A DNA stretch of 64,000 nt from Terripilifer ovatus (GTDB lineage Bacteria; Pseudomonadota; Alphaproteobacteria; Rhizobiales; Beijerinckiaceae). The stretch spans positions 124,001-188,000 of the forward strand of contig JARHVB010000085.1 in NCBI GenBank assembly GCA_029222685.1, written 5' to 3'. Numbering within the stretch: position 1 is the first letter of the stretch; the number at the start of each line of letters is the position of its first letter. The notes beneath the pieces are model-generated. The model was not told the origin of the DNA and searched no databases. It saw nothing but the letters and a program-made list of their open reading frames with translations. Position numbers and translations under genes: made by a program. Below, one piece after another: positions 9,898 through 38,740 of the stretch.

Positions 9898-10584
9898 TTA
9901 GGCCGGATTGGCCGCAGAACCAAGCGAAAGCAGCGCCACGGCGGCACGCGCCCGCGCGACGAAATCGGCGATCAGCCCCTCGTCCTTGACGCCCGGCGCA
10001 CGCTCGACCCCCGACGACACGTCGACGCCCGGTGCGCGGGTGATCCGCAGCGCCTCGCCGACATTGTCCGGGCCGAGTCCGCCAGACAGCATCCACGGCG
10101 CCTGCAGGGACAGATTTTCCAGAATGGTCCAGTCGAAGGCCGCGCCATTGCCGCCCGGCAGGAGCGCCCCCTTCGGCGGCTTGGCGTCGAACATCAGGCG
10201 ATCGGCGACGCCGTCATAGGCGGGGATGGCGGCGAGATCGTCGCGGGTGGAGATGTGGAGCGCCTTCATCACCGGCAGGCCGAAGCGGGCCTTGATCGCG
10301 CTGACACGCTCCGGCGTCTCCCGGCCGTGCAACTGCAGCCAGTCGGGCGCCAGCGCCGCGACAATGCCGTCGAGCAGGGCGTCGTCGGCATCGACCGAGA
10401 GCGCCACTTTCAAGGCCCTGCCGCCGACCTGCGCGCTCAAGGTCCGGGCCGTTTCCAGCGAGAGATGGCGCGGGCTCGGCGAAAAGAACACGAAGCCAAC
10501 CATGTCGGCGCCGGCGTTGAGCGCCGCCGCCAGGGTGGGGGCCGTCGAGAGACCGCAGATTTTGACCGTGAGGGGCGTGGGCAT
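9898..10584 (-). CDS. trpF: Phosphoribosylanthranilate isomerase
   Basis: Converts N-(5-phosphoribosyl)anthranilate to CdRP, the third step from chorismate to tryptophan. The catalytic cysteine is Cys10 in VKICGLS and the C-terminal catalytic aspartate lies in GVDVSSGVE; 228 residues is normal. The ATG at 10584 ([10 protein letters not shown]) fits the family; the frame upstream to 10695 is translated repeat DNA. It is the first gene of trpF-trpB. Confidence 0.95.
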
Positions 10585-10664
10585 GCGGAGGTCTATGGCA
10601 TATTTGGAGGAGAGCATCCAGCGAGAGCTGAGGGGACTTAAGATCGGCCTCGCAACCTCCTCGC

Positions 10665-10699
10665 CGTCATGCCCGCGCTTGTCGCGGGCACCCACGCCG
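10665..10699 (+). repeat. REP-like hairpin repeat, copy 1 (upstream of the GIY-YIG gene)
   Basis: A 35-base unit that opens CGTCATG, contains a 7-bp stem GCCCGCG/CGCGGGC around the loop CTTGT, and ends ACCCACGCCG. The same unit occurs at 38608-38642 and, inverted, at 38706-38740. Its first 25 bases recur inverted and without mismatch at 11069-11093 on the other side of the GIY-YIG gene. Confidence 0.85.
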
Positions 10700-10780
10700 G
10701 GGTGCGCCGGTGCGGCTCAGAAGGCACGTTAAGCGTCGCGGCCGCTTGCCGGCAAGACGCCTGAATCTTAGCATCTCCTG

Positions 10781-11068
10781 ATGAAGGGTGGCTTCGTTTA
10801 TATCATGACCAACAAGGCCAACAGCACGCTCTATCTTGGCATGACGAGCGATCTGGCTCGCGCTTGGGAGCATCGTGAAGGCACTGCGCCCGGCTTCACG
10901 CGGCAGTACAAACTGAAGCGGCTGGTCTGGTACGAGGCACACCATGACATTCGTGATGCCATCCAGCGCGAGAAGACCATGAAACATTGGTCTCGCGCGT
11001 GGAAGGTGCGCATGATCCTCGATCTGAATCCGGAATGGCGAGATTTGTACGAGGATCTAAATTTGTAA
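10781..11068 (+). CDS. GIY-YIG nuclease family protein (UPF0213-like)
   Basis: A 95-residue single-domain GIY-YIG endonuclease-like protein. The signature reads FVYIMTN...TLYLGMTSDL; an arginine follows in LARAWEHREG and the catalytic glutamate is probably in AIQREKTMKHW, so the active site looks intact. I see no DNA-binding domain. The ATG at 10781 lacks a strong ribosome site; CTCC, not GGAG, precedes it. The gene lies between two inverted copies of a REP-like hairpin, the downstream copy starting on the base after the stop codon. This suggests the gene and repeats form one unit. The cellular role of small GIY-YIG proteins of this type is not established. Confidence 0.88.
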   Translation: MKGGFVYIMTNKANSTLYLGMTSDLARAWEHREGTAPGFTRQYKLKRLVWYEAHHDIRDAIQREKTMKHWSRAWKVRMILDLNPEWRDLYEDLNL

Positions 11069-11093
11069 GCCCGCGACAAGCGCGGGCATGACG
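11069..11093 (-). repeat. REP-like hairpin repeat, inverted partial copy 2 (directly after the GIY-YIG stop)
   Basis: These 25 bases are the exact reverse complement of 10665-10689: stem GCCCGCG/CGCGGGC with loop CTTGT read on the minus strand, followed by CATGACG. The first base abuts the TAA stop of the GIY-YIG gene. The ACCCACGCCG tail found in the other copies is absent. Confidence 0.85.
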
Positions 11094-11130
11094 TCGCGGA
11101 GGGGGAAGGTGGCAGCGTAAATTGTGAGAC

Positions 11131-13353
11131 TTACGCCGCCTTCTTCGCCGCCCCGAACCGCCCGTAAAACGTCTCGCCCTTCGCTGCCATATCCAGCAGC
11201 AGCGCACACGGCTTGAAGCGGGCGCCATATTTGGCCTCGAGCTTCTGACACAGCGCCACGAACTTCGCTGCGCCCATGCCGTCGATCATGCTCAGCACGC
11301 CGCCGGTGAAGGGGGCGAAGCCGAAGCCAAGGATCGAGCCGACGTCGGCCTCGCGCGGGTCGACGATCACGTGGTCCTCGACCGTGCGCGCGGCTTCCAG
11401 CGCCTGTGTCACCAGCAGGCGCTGCTGCAATTCCTCGCGGTCGAGCGTGTCGGGATCGAGATGCTTCGGCTGCAGCGCCCCAAGGCCGGGCCACAGCTTC
11501 TTCTGGCCCTTCTCGGGATAATCGTAGAAACCCTTGCCGTTCTTGCGGCCGAGGCGGCCCTGCTTGACCACCATTTCCTCGAGCAGCTTTTCCTGATTGG
11601 CGTCGACCGCCTGCGGGCCGAGATCCTTCTTGGCCGCCTGCAGAATCTTCCAGCCGAGATCGAGCGCCACCTCATCGTTGAGCGACAGCGGGCCGACCGG
11701 CATGCCGGCTTTCTTGGCGATGTTCTCGATCATCGCCGCGGGCACGCCTTCCATCAACATCAGATGGCCTTCGAGGATATAGTTGAGCACGCAGCGGTTG
11801 GCGAAGAAGCCGCGGCTGTCGTTGACGACGATCGGCGTCTTGCGCACGGCGCGCACATAGTCGAGCGCCATCGCCAGAGCCTTGTCGCCGGTCTTCTTGC
11901 CGAGGATCACCTCGACCAGCATCATGCGCTCGACCGGCGAGAAGAAATGCACGCCGATGAAATGATCCGGCCGCGAATAGTTCTCGGCCAGCGACGTGAT
12001 CGGCAATGTCGACGTGTTGGAGGCGAAGACGGCGTCGGGCGACAGGAATTCCTGCGCCTTCCTGGTTGCCTCCGCCTTCACCGCGCGATCCTCGAACACC
12101 GCCTCGATCACCATCTGGCAATCCACGATCTTCGAATAGTCCGGCGTTGCCTCGATGCGCGCCAGCAGTTCGTCGCGCTGGGCGGTCTTGGCGCGGCCTT
12201 TCATGATCTGGTCGGTCATCAGCTTGTGCGAGAGCTGCTTGCCCTTGTCGGCCGATTCCTGGTCGCGATCGATCAGCACCACCTCGATGCCGGCGAGTGC
12301 GCTGACATAGGCGATCGACGCGCCCATGAAGCCGGCGCCGAGCACGGCGATCTTCTTCGGCGCCGATGGCGGAATGTTCGCCGGCCGCCGCGCGCCCTTG
12401 TTGAGCTCACCCATGGAGATGAACAGGGTGCGGATCATGGCGCGCGCTTCCGGCGAGCGCAGGATCTTGGCGAACCAGCGGCTCTCGACCTTCAGCGCCA
12501 GGTCCATCGGCAATTGCAGGCCTTCATAGACCGCGTGCAGGATCGCCTTGATGGCGGGGTAATTGTCCTGCGTCTCGCGGCGGTAGATGGCGTTGGCGGC
12601 AGGCCACACCATCATGCCGGCGGGCGAGAACACCTTGCCGGACGGATTGCGGAACTTCGGATCGTCCCACGGCGCAATGCCTTTGCCACCGGCGGCGATC
12701 CAGGCTTTCGCCTTGGCGACGAGATCCGCAGCCGGCACGACCTCGTGCACAAGGCCCATGCTCTTCGCGGCGGCGGGCCGCAACTGATCGCCCTTGAACA
12801 GCATCTGCAGGGCATCGCCCGTCTGCATCAGCCTCGCCACGCGCTGCGTGCCGCCGGCGCCGGGGAAAAGGCCCACCTTCACTTCCGGCAGGCCGACGCG
12901 CGTCTTGTCGGAATCCGACAGCACGCGATAGTGGCAGGCGAGCGCCATTTCGAACGCGCCGCCGAGCGCCACGCCGTTGATCGCGGCGACGAAGGGTTTG
13001 CCGCAGGTCTCGAGCTTGCGGTAGAGCACCGACAGCGAGCGCGTGCCGTCGAAGAAGAACTGCATCGCTTTCTCGTAGCCGTCCGACTTGATCATCTTCG
13101 CGAGCTGGCCGCCGAAACCTTCCATCATGGTCAGGTCGGCGCCGCCGGAGAAACTGTCCTTCTTGCCCGAGACGATGACGCAGCCCTTGATGGCGGCATC
13201 GGCCACGACGGTATCGATGACCTGTTCGAGTTCGCTCATCACCTCCTGGGTGATGACGTTCATCGAACGGTCGGGCATGTCCCAGGTGAGGAGCGCAATG
13301 CCGTCGGCGTCGGTTTCGAAGCTGAAGTTCTTGAGGTTCAAGGTGGTGCTCAT
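11131..13353 (-). CDS. Multifunctional fatty acid oxidation protein (enoyl-CoA hydratase/3-hydroxyacyl-CoA dehydrogenase, FadJ/FadB-like)
   Basis: Carries out two steps of beta-oxidation: hydration of trans-2-enoyl-CoA and NAD-dependent oxidation of the 3-hydroxyacyl-CoA. The N-terminal third (about 1-190) is a crotonase domain (SGGADLTMMEGFGG, AINGVALGGAFEMALAC). Near residue 335 the NAD-binding fold starts (IAVLGAGFMGASIAYVSA), followed by the C-terminal dehydrogenase domains. The ATG at 13353 (MSTTLNLKNF) gives 740 residues, normal for FadJ; the open frame beyond belongs to antisense of the GFA gene. It is the last gene of the operon that starts at 16859. Substrate chain length cannot be told. 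Confidence 0.94.
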   Translation of the reverse strand: MSTTLNLKNFSFETDADGIALLTWDMPDRSMNVITQEVMSELEQVIDTVVADAAIKGCVIVSGKKDSFSGGADLTMMEGFGGQLAKMIKSDGYEKAMQFFFDGTRSLSVLYRKLETCGKPFVAAINGVALGGAFEMALACHYRVLSDSDKTRVGLPEVKVGLFPGAGGTQRVARLMQTGDALQMLFKGDQLRPAAAKSMGLVHEVVPAADLVAKAKAWIAAGGKGIAPWDDPKFRNPSGKVFSPAGMMVWPAANAIYRRETQDNYPAIKAILHAVYEGLQLPMDLALKVESRWFAKILRSPEARAMIRTLFISMGELNKGARRPANIPPSAPKKIAVLGAGFMGASIAYVSALAGIEVVLIDRDQESADKGKQLSHKLMTDQIMKGRAKTAQRDELLARIEATPDYSKIVDCQMVIEAVFEDRAVKAEATRKAQEFLSPDAVFASNTSTLPITSLAENYSRPDHFIGVHFFSPVERMMLVEVILGKKTGDKALAMALDYVRAVRKTPIVVNDSRGFFANRCVLNYILEGHLMLMEGVPAAMIENIAKKAGMPVGPLSLNDEVALDLGWKILQAAKKDLGPQAVDANQEKLLEEMVVKQGRLGRKNGKGFYDYPEKGQKKLWPGLGALQPKHLDPDTLDREELQQRLLVTQALEAARTVEDHVIVDPREADVGSILGFGFAPFTGGVLSMIDGMGAAKFVALCQKLEAKYGARFKPCALLLDMAAKGETFYGRFGAAKKAA

Positions 13354-13379
13354 TGGCTCGGCCCTCTCTCTGAGCGAAA

Positions 13380-13811
13380 TCAGGATGCTTTTGCTGGTGG
13401 GGGTGGAAAGTCGCCCGGGAATGTATCGGCGCCGGGCACGAACATGTGCCAGGCCGGCGCCGAGGCGGCGAAGATATGCGCCTTCACCGCAAAACTGTCG
13501 AAATCGTCGATGGCGCCTGCGGCCATGACGATATGGCGCGGCAGTTTCTCCAGGTGGACATAAAGCGGCGCGCCGCACTCGGCGCAGAAATGCCTGACGA
13601 TGCCGCGGCCGCTGTCGCCCTTGATGGCGTATTCGCGTGGGCTTCCTCGTGTGAGTTGGAACGCGGTACGCTCGAACACCGCTTCATAGGCTGGCGCGCC
13701 GCCGTTGTAGCGCGTGCAATCGCTGCAATGGCAGGCGAGGTTCATCCGGCTGTCGCCATCGAGCGAAAACCGGATTGCGCCGCAAAGACATCCGCCGTCG
13801 AAACGCGCCAT
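13380..13811 (-). CDS. GFA family protein (glutathione-dependent formaldehyde-activating enzyme/CENP-V fold)
   Basis: A 143-residue zinc-binding protein. Cysteine motifs typical of the family are present: Cys8 and Cys10 in GGCLCG, CHCSDC at 27-32, and Cys76/Cys79 in FCAECG. Members bind structural zinc, and some a second catalytic-like zinc; most have no proven function. It is embedded in the beta-oxidation operon, 13 nt after thiolase and 26 nt before the FadJ-like gene. Cotranscription is likely but a role in fatty acid oxidation is not known. Confidence 0.9.
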
Positions 13812-38607: not shown

Positions 38608-38642
38608 CGTCATGGCCGGGCTTGTCCCGGCCACCCACGCCG
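38608..38642 (+). repeat. REP-like hairpin repeat, copy 3
   Basis: The same 35-base unit as at 10665: CGTCATG, stem GGCCGGG/CCCGGCC with loop CTTGT, tail ACCCACGCCG. The stem sequence differs from copy 1 but every change is matched on the other arm. It lies after the MetE-like gene and faces the inverted copy at 38706. Confidence 0.85.
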
Positions 38643-38705
38643 TGGGGCGCCGTCATGTTTCAGAAGAATGTATTCGCTGAATTCTGCAGCACCGACGCAG
38701 CTTCA

Positions 38706-38740
38706 CGGCGTGGGTGCCCGCAACAAGTGCGGGCATGACG
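38706..38740 (-). repeat. REP-like hairpin repeat, copy 4 (inverted)
   Basis: The minus-strand version of the 35-base unit: CGTCATG, stem GCCCGCA/TGCGGGC around loop CTTGT, tail ACCCACGCCG. With copy 3 it makes a head-to-head pair about 63 bases apart between two convergent genes, like a BIME of enterobacteria. Confidence 0.85.

Follow-up and report, generated by a model that had tools for sequence, protein, structure and literature searches.

In this study, we analysed a 64,000-nucleotide stretch of the Terripilifer ovatus genome (the window, counted from its first letter) and found in it a small GIY-YIG nuclease gene standing exactly between two inverted copies of a CGTC-tagged REP. By comparing sequences across genomes, we showed that the association between such genes and CGTC REPs is general and extends over several phyla, that the pairing with a particular REP is specific to each nuclease, and that at two sites, the window's own locus and the sufB-sufC spacer of Azospirillum, the gene and its REPs are either both there or both missing. 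We consider it likely that the gene and its two flanking REPs form a mobile unit, one of a widespread family in which CGTC-tagged REPs have a minimal GIY-YIG nuclease as their dedicated enzyme. With somewhat less confidence, we favour the broader view that CGTC REPs, one of the two major super-families of bacterial REPs, owe their mobility to stand-alone GIY-YIG nucleases of a class not recognised before. Each would read its own stem, and a hydrolytic enzyme shorter than 100 residues would, together with host repair, stand in for the transposase. The initial annotation of this DNA had likened the locus to the RAYT/REP relationship with a GIY-YIG nuclease as the enzyme, and this comparison is now supported by the REPs at the gene borders, the control with other ORFs, the genome counts and the empty sites described below.

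The features of the locus are collected in Table 1. The inverted arms that enclose the gene (10656-10689 and 11069-11102) are 34 nt long and 94% complementary, and their inner 25 bases, which comprise the CGTC tag and the hairpin (10665-10689 and 11069-11093), match perfectly, as had been annotated; a weak outer box precedes the REP copies and extends the inverted match by about 10 bases outside the REP. The annotated abutment of the downstream repeat on the gene was also borne out, with the stop codon at 11066-11068 and the repeat starting on the very next base, 11069. Folding as single-stranded DNA gave a CTTGT loop in each copy and a stem of 8 bp in the left REP and 7 bp in the right one, so that of the originally described hairpin (CTTGT loop, 7-bp stem in both copies) the loop stands for both and the stem length for the right copy. 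None of 200 shuffles of the left REP and none of 200 shuffles of the right one folded as well as the real sequence, and none of 100 shuffled windows contained any match to the repeat. The further gene-less copies that had been reported in the window are an inverted pair, at 38609-38635 (+) and 38713-38739 (-). From their sequences, we take the neighbouring ORFs to be TrpF-like on the left of the unit and FadJ/FadB-like on the right; the true start of the left one is probably near 10584.

Table 1. Nuclease unit, its neighbours and the gene-less REP dimer, in window coordinates.
Feature	Position	Strand	Basis or remark
GIY-YIG nuclease gene, 95 aa	10781..11068	+	ORF list, PF01541 match, family alignment
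Left CGTC-tagged REP	10665..10695	+	CGTC 10665-10668, stem 10670-10677, loop CTTGT 10678-10682, stem 10683-10690, then CCCA tail
Right REP, inverted	11069..11093	-	CGTC tag 11090-11093; without CC tail
Weak outer box (CAACCTCY-like), just outside left REP	10653..10664	+	Information content upstream of own-genome REPs
Left half of dispersed ~130-bp REP dimer	10666..10723	+	Also part of gene-less copies at other places of this genome
Gene-less REP dimer, two convergent REPs	38609..38739	.	Common short form in this genome
Neighbouring ORF, left of unit	9898..10695	-	Listed start is the longest possible and overlaps the left REP
Neighbouring ORF, right of unit	11131..13578	-	ORF list, congener locus comparison

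The 95-residue protein matches PF01541 (E=3e-12) as its one Pfam domain, over residues 4-75, which confirms the annotated GIY-YIG gene, and its domain and conserved Tyr, Arg and Glu, shared with the GIY-YIG superfamily, predict nuclease activity. The family residues Y7, Y18, G20, R27, H31, E64 and N83 are conserved in it, and Y18, R27, H31, E64 and N83 are invariant across the 20 aligned rows of the family alignment (A1). Its nearest relative (P0001, 96 aa) is 97-98% identical; the window protein is one residue shorter, at the RR preceding R27 and the helix, where the invariant Arg is kept, and the loss of one residue of this RR might have weakened the window copy. A weak match (E=0.013) links it to the UPF0213-like small GIY-YIG protein of structure 1zg2, which is similar in size and distantly related. 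The window protein had no match in NCBIfam, no family among the PADLOC models of anti-phage defence at E≤0.01 and no close relatives in a scan of viral contigs. Rfam gave four matches, all far below the gathering scores. The matches in PHROGs were weak; the window protein hit a family of unknown function (E=0.0015), and P0001 hit homing-endonuclease families as well (best E=2e-4).

The REP of the window is a dispersed repeat of its genome (7.2 Mb in 86 contigs), where a degenerate pattern allowing up to three mismatches matched 73 times (39 forward, 34 reverse), against 2 matches (0 and 2) for the reversed control pattern. Forty-six of the 73 copies form 23 convergent pairs, and all REP pairs closer than 2 kb (23/23) are convergent, with none in another orientation. 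The start-to-start distance is 97-117 bp in 22 of the 23; the sole wider pair, at 402 bp, is the one that encloses the nuclease. The predominance of HH dimers, with tags outside, that characterises the CGTC super-family is thus seen in this genome. The half-element is conserved from the tag to about +58 and is common to the nuclease unit and the gene-less pairs (93% identity between window positions 10646-10714 and G000:C2:11261-11330), so that, judging by this alignment, the unit looks like half of a dispersed dimer on its left side and retains the hairpin only on its right. Among 37 own-genome copies, for which GTC belonged to the search pattern, a C precedes GTC in 36, CC occupies +26 and +27 in 36 and 35, and A stands at +28 in 35. 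A weak CAACCTCY-like box precedes the tag in these 37 copies, with information raised at -13 to -4 from GTC; this box, 4-13 bases outside GTC, may reflect either a target preference or the true end of the element. The nuclease gene is single-copy in this genome, so that recent copying of the long form is not visible there.

Comparisons of single sites bear on whether the gene and the repeats belong together. In two congeners (G001 and G014), the same two neighbours occur with neither gene nor REP between them, in line with the annotated idea that the gene and its flanking repeats form a unit; the spacing between the matched stretches is 120 bp in G001 and 111 bp in G014 compared to about 567 bp in the window, and both genomes carry members of the nuclease family at other places. 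In Azospirillum lipoferum 4B, sufB and sufC are separated by the gene together with two REP dimers, one on either side of it, and the spacer is short and free of REPs in A. oryzae, A. ramasamyi and Azospirillum sp. B510, which are ~95% identical there. The flanks have diverged at these sites, and insertion boundaries and target-site duplications are therefore not readable. The unit is also present on the Sphingobium plasmids TomTYG46, TomTYG73 and TomMM15, with an apparent one-base gap in the nuclease gene of TomTYG73. TomTYG64 (L253, the spacer from fnrL to a response regulator gene) has, in place of the unit, one hairpin of complete symmetry, GTCACCCCGGG-TCAAG-CCCGGGGTGAC; its sequence is what results when the left REP contributes its outer arm and the right REP its loop and outer arm. 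This one case could be an excision scar or the result of slippage between the 8-base arms. In five 50-kb pieces of related Sphingobium plasmids, the REP dimers are old and their flanks different. Symmetric GTC...GAC hairpins, with a GTC tag at both ends, were seen in TomTYG64 and in the downstream flank of another locus (L192), and are possibly excision scars between two inverted REPs.

Homologues of the nuclease were found in 20 of 51 genomes of the genus at E≤0.001 (4 of these with distant matches only) and in 139 of 385 genomes of the class at E≤1e-10. A further named set comprised the best 80 of 590 loci, with one genome per species, and is biased to the neighbourhood of the query; in a plasmid collection, the family gene occurred in 33 records, of which ten places were examined. 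Two sequences filed as plasmids, NZ_CP119142.1 (2.17 Mb; L185) and NZ_AP026896.1 (4.9 Mb; L193), resemble chromosomes in size. A first detector, defined as GTC, a stem of at least 7 bp and CC within 200 bp of the gene, found a REP in 122 of 153 loci and on both sides in 89 of 153 (three distant genes included; 10 of 163 loci left out for flanks below 200 bp), compared to 41/178 on either side and 1/178 on both sides for other ORFs of the same loci. REPs number 7.1 per kb in the first 100 bp from the gene, compared to 0.16 per kb at distances beyond 500 bp. With an extended detector, which adds the GTCATTGCGAG class, covers more loci and excludes the distant genes (10 of 199 loci dropped for short flanks), REPs lie within 200 bp of the family genes on at least one side in 159 of 189 cases and on both sides in 120 of 189, and in the named set the counts are 71/73 and 53/73. 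Eighteen distant GIY-YIG genes yielded no case with CGTC REPs (0/18), and other ORFs, chosen such that their flanks do not touch those of the nuclease genes, had REPs on either side in 20/148 cases and on both in 1/148. The expectation, set out with the annotation, that homologues would be flanked by inverted repeats therefore held, although not for a single CTTGT-loop type, since the whole super-family of CGTC-tagged REPs is involved; equal repeat density around other genes, which would have spoken against the idea, was not seen. A score for inverted repeats in the flanks that is agnostic to their sequence agreed, reaching at least 16 in 42 of the 77 named genes that remained of the 80 once three at contig edges were removed, and in 3 of 3,159 sliding controls.

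The arrangement is not uniform across the family. The tag of the nearest REP points outward in 90 of 137 left flanks and 98 of 142 right flanks, and inward in the remainder. Thirty of the 189 family genes have no REP by motif; by eye, some of these have other repeat types and some look bare. Inverted REPs accompany family members from alpha-, beta-, gamma- and deltaproteobacteria, from an elusimicrobium (L156) and from a candidate Uhrbacterium (L162). By inspection, the gene is also bordered by REP-like hairpins in Planktothrix (Cyanobacteriota) and Spirosoma (Bacteroidota), both of which the detector scores as negative. The Neisseria gonorrhoeae protein, 64% identical to query L055, is encoded among CGTCATTCCCGC-type REPs whose tags face the gene, and which we take to be dRS3.

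The REPs on the two sides of a gene resemble each other more than they resemble those of its paralogues. We compared left and right flanks for 79 genes of 31 class genomes with at least two fetched copies each, a subset of the listed copies (one locus without an upstream flank was dropped), and found a left/right REP score of at least 20 in 45/79 comparisons within the same gene versus 17/176 between paralogues of the same genome; none of 5,000 within-genome permutations reached the observed mean same-gene score. In one genome (G173) with eleven divergent nuclease copies, at least seven of the nine that were read have recognisable REPs, with stems that differ by eye. In total, 73 distinct stems stand beside family genes in a list of hairpins selected for GTC, CC and full pairing, one of them (L117) probably spurious. 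The tag is CGTC in 187 and TGTC in 58 of the 254 hairpin placements beside family genes (245/254 together), the CCA tail is present in 247/254, and the loops are mostly GNAN with 8-bp stems or CTTGA/CTTGT with 9-bp stems. Judged by these motifs, the repeats are a super-family, the CGTC-tagged REPs, in which the stem often differs between nucleases. The protein side varies along with the repeat. After two of 203 proteins had been dropped, a REP class could be assigned for 147 of the remaining 201. All 17 proteins with class C REPs (GTCATTGCGAG) have Gly at a certain position of a C-terminal motif, and 125 of the 130 with class A or B REPs have Trp or Tyr there, the other five being unparsed. 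On the protein tree, which has few columns and weak resolution, class C falls entirely on the same side of a branch, with 1 change as against 16.3 when shuffled, and all REP classes together require 17 changes versus 50.4 when shuffled.

An association is also visible in whole-genome counts. A loose pattern, CGTCATN{14,30}ATCCA, proved noisy over the 385 class genomes, with many matches like ordinary coding sequence, and was replaced by two covariance models, scoring up to 18-19 hits per genome and model. Both models derive from REPs found next to family genes, including genes of some genomes later scanned, and only from fully paired hairpins, so that pair counts on them would be uninformative about covariation. 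Leaving out 17 genomes with weak nuclease matches, 368 remained, and REP-rich genomes (at least 10 REP hits) made up 95 of the 122 with the gene versus 35 of the 246 without it. Lower thresholds gave the same picture, but they count in the REPs that gene-bearing genomes carry beside the gene by construction, and only the threshold of 10 is therefore informative. With one genome per family (130 genomes), 33/40 with the gene and 9/90 without it were REP-rich. The first class search had scored up to 13 candidates per genome; a second search of the 35 REP-rich gene-less genomes, in which all candidates were scored, brought up no full-length nuclease relative either, 27 genomes giving nothing and 8 giving weak partial matches, compared to 6 of 35 REP-free controls with weak matches. 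The anticipated absence of repeats from gene-less genomes was thus found as a strong depletion, with these 35 as exceptions, in which the REPs must therefore outlive the nuclease gene or be served in some other way. In 80 of the genomes, the Y1 transposase domain showed no significant link to these REPs (8/16 versus 18/64, p=0.14), whereas in 76 of those the nuclease did (19/26 versus 6/50, p=1e-7).

These results meet a gap left by earlier work on REPs. Di Nocera, De Gregorio and Rocco (2013, PMC3733652) divided REPs into GTAG and CGTC super-families and linked the former to RAYTs; according to the accessible text of that survey, CGTC REPs occur in 5 phyla and "apparently lack a dedicated transposase", CGTC REPtrons may have been lost early or various transposases may serve CGTC REPs, and the CGTC-1 elements of Neisseriae are equated with dRS3. 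The traits given there for the CGTC super-family (C/TGTC tag, stem of 8-9 bp, loop of 4-5 nt, CCA tail, HH dimers) are shared by the REPs described here, except that the window copies have lost the first A-T pair, and whereas that survey left the enzyme open (PMC3733652), we propose a nuclease partner. Among the listed matches of our searches, which covered the open-access literature, no paper joins GIY-YIG nucleases to REPs. As far as the accessible portions go, the 2006 GIY-YIG survey (PMC1564403) is free of the string "palindrom", the main text of a 2025 REP survey lacks the terms nuclease, transposase and GIY, and a paper on Bradyrhizobium REPs (PMC5082802) lacks "GIY", "nuclease" and "CGTC"; PMC9465073, the one paper among the matches with both phrases, names the two genes in a list of strain-specific genes. 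The 2006 survey does describe one HsdR protein into which a GIY-YIG domain was recently inserted and a close homologue that lacks it (PMC1564403), which would fit a mobile unit.

The closest known system is the RAYT (TnpA-REP) with its GTAG REPs (REPtrons, REPINs). Both consist of a small enzyme gene flanked by inverted REP hairpins, both have REPs dispersed as singletons and inverted dimers and an enzyme cognate to its REP, and both allow several pairs per genome. They differ in that the enzyme here is a GIY-YIG protein (PF01541 only) and not an HUH Y1 enzyme, in that the tags are CGTC rather than GTAG, and in that no covalent tyrosine chemistry is expected. HUH-type RAYTs process single-stranded REP DNA themselves, according to the accessible text of two sources (PMC8266576, PMC3733652). 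The unit works like a REPtron but is none, because the defining transposase and the GTAG tag were both looked for and neither was found, PF01797 (the Y1 transposase domain of RAYTs) being without a match in the window's genome; as proposed here, the nuclease would be RAYT-like in role and is unrelated as an enzyme. Homing endonucleases of the I-TevI type are likewise selfish GIY-YIG nucleases tied to DNA mobility, but no separate DNA-binding domain was found in the window protein, no intron or intein was seen, and the gene is flanked by its own hairpins. Pairs of bacterial MITEs and autonomous IS elements share with the present system a short gene-less form and a longer coding form with the same ends; here, in contrast, there is no known transposase. 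At the empty sites, the flanks are too diverged for a target-site duplication to show. What is new is the proposed partnership of a protein of the known GIY-YIG superfamily with repeats of the known CGTC super-family.

How such a unit might move can be outlined as follows. The nuclease would recognise its own hairpin, by the CGTC tag, the CCA tail, one of few loop types and the variable stem, in single-stranded or cruciform form, and would cut near the tag, on a cruciform or on a single strand exposed during replication. A pair of inverted REPs would delimit the moving segment, and the usual product would be the short gene-less REP dimer, with a rare long form carrying the nuclease gene. GIY-YIG enzymes are expected to act by hydrolysis, with neither a covalent intermediate nor a strand-transfer step, so that the joining step must come from elsewhere, that is, from host repair, which might re-insert or copy the segment. 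We infer, in short, that hairpins are cut, that this cutting drives the spread of the repeats and that host repair completes the insertion. The varied orientation of the tags, inward in some flanks and facing the gene in Neisseria, is a counterpoint to a uniform unit of this kind.

Other explanations of the association were weighed. Some other enzyme could spread REP dimers, with the small nuclease gene captured between two REPs, and both the 35 REP-rich genomes without the nuclease and the patchiness of the family (20/51 genus genomes, 4 of them by distant matches only, and 139/385 in the class) favour this; we nevertheless regard it as unlikely, since REPs on both sides are rare among the other ORFs at these loci (1/148), since at least seven of the nine paralogues read in G173 have recognisable REPs with different stems, and since capture does not predict the agreement seen across genomes between protein motif and REP class. 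Far from the gene, these REPs recur tens of times as dimers; they also flank it on both sides in 120/189 cases and not downstream alone, and at two sites they are there or missing jointly with it, all of which makes it improbable that they are RNA hairpins or terminators tuning the nuclease mRNA, or autoregulatory trimming sites, with mobility being incidental. Such a regulatory or protective role would agree with the right REP, which abuts the stop codon as a terminator might, and with the treatment of REPs as RNA elements in the 2013 survey (PMC3733652).

A role on behalf of the host appears very improbable to us: a Slx1-like structure-specific nuclease would resolve REP cruciforms and be kept near REPs by selection, a notion to which the large prokaryotic Slx1-like group, where the present family may belong, lends itself by including stand-alone GIY-YIG proteins, according to the accessible text of the 2006 survey (PMC1564403), whereas the patchy distribution, the divergent paralogues per genome and the insertion inside the sufB-sufC operon look selfish, and a generic resolvase would have no need for stem-specific pairing. 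That the gene is just another intergenic neighbour of REPs, which the 2013 survey describes as mainly intergenic (PMC3733652), has next to no probability, and we rejected chance and intergenic bias on the strength of the other ORFs (1/148 on both sides), the sliding controls (3/3,159), the distant GIY-YIG genes (0/18) and the permutations (0/5,000). If CGTC REPs are indeed moved by dedicated GIY-YIG nucleases, as we favour, the spread of REPs has arisen on at least two occasions, with nucleases unrelated to each other, and transposase chemistry is not required for a tiny GIY-YIG enzyme to mobilise DNA. A candidate enzyme makes the spread of CGTC REPs a testable question, and the many natural pairs of enzyme and stem, those of G173 included, are ready material on how a minimal nuclease reads hairpin DNA.

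Hairpins with a different tag were noted beside some GIY-YIG genes. In Sinorhizobium meliloti (L187), the gene lies between CCTC-tagged hairpins (CCTCATCCCTGTGCTCGTCACAGGGATCCAG) that are invisible to a GTC-based detector, and four distant GIY-YIG genes (L048, L049, L050 and L243) are flanked by an inverted CCCTCATGCTGAGGAGC...GCGTCTCGAAGCACGAGGG-like repeat that also bears a CCTC tag. The sequence-agnostic inverted-repeat score reached at least 14 in 4 of the 18 distant GIY-YIG genes, compared to 0 of 231 controls, and these distant genes and their repeats perhaps represent a second nuclease/REP class.
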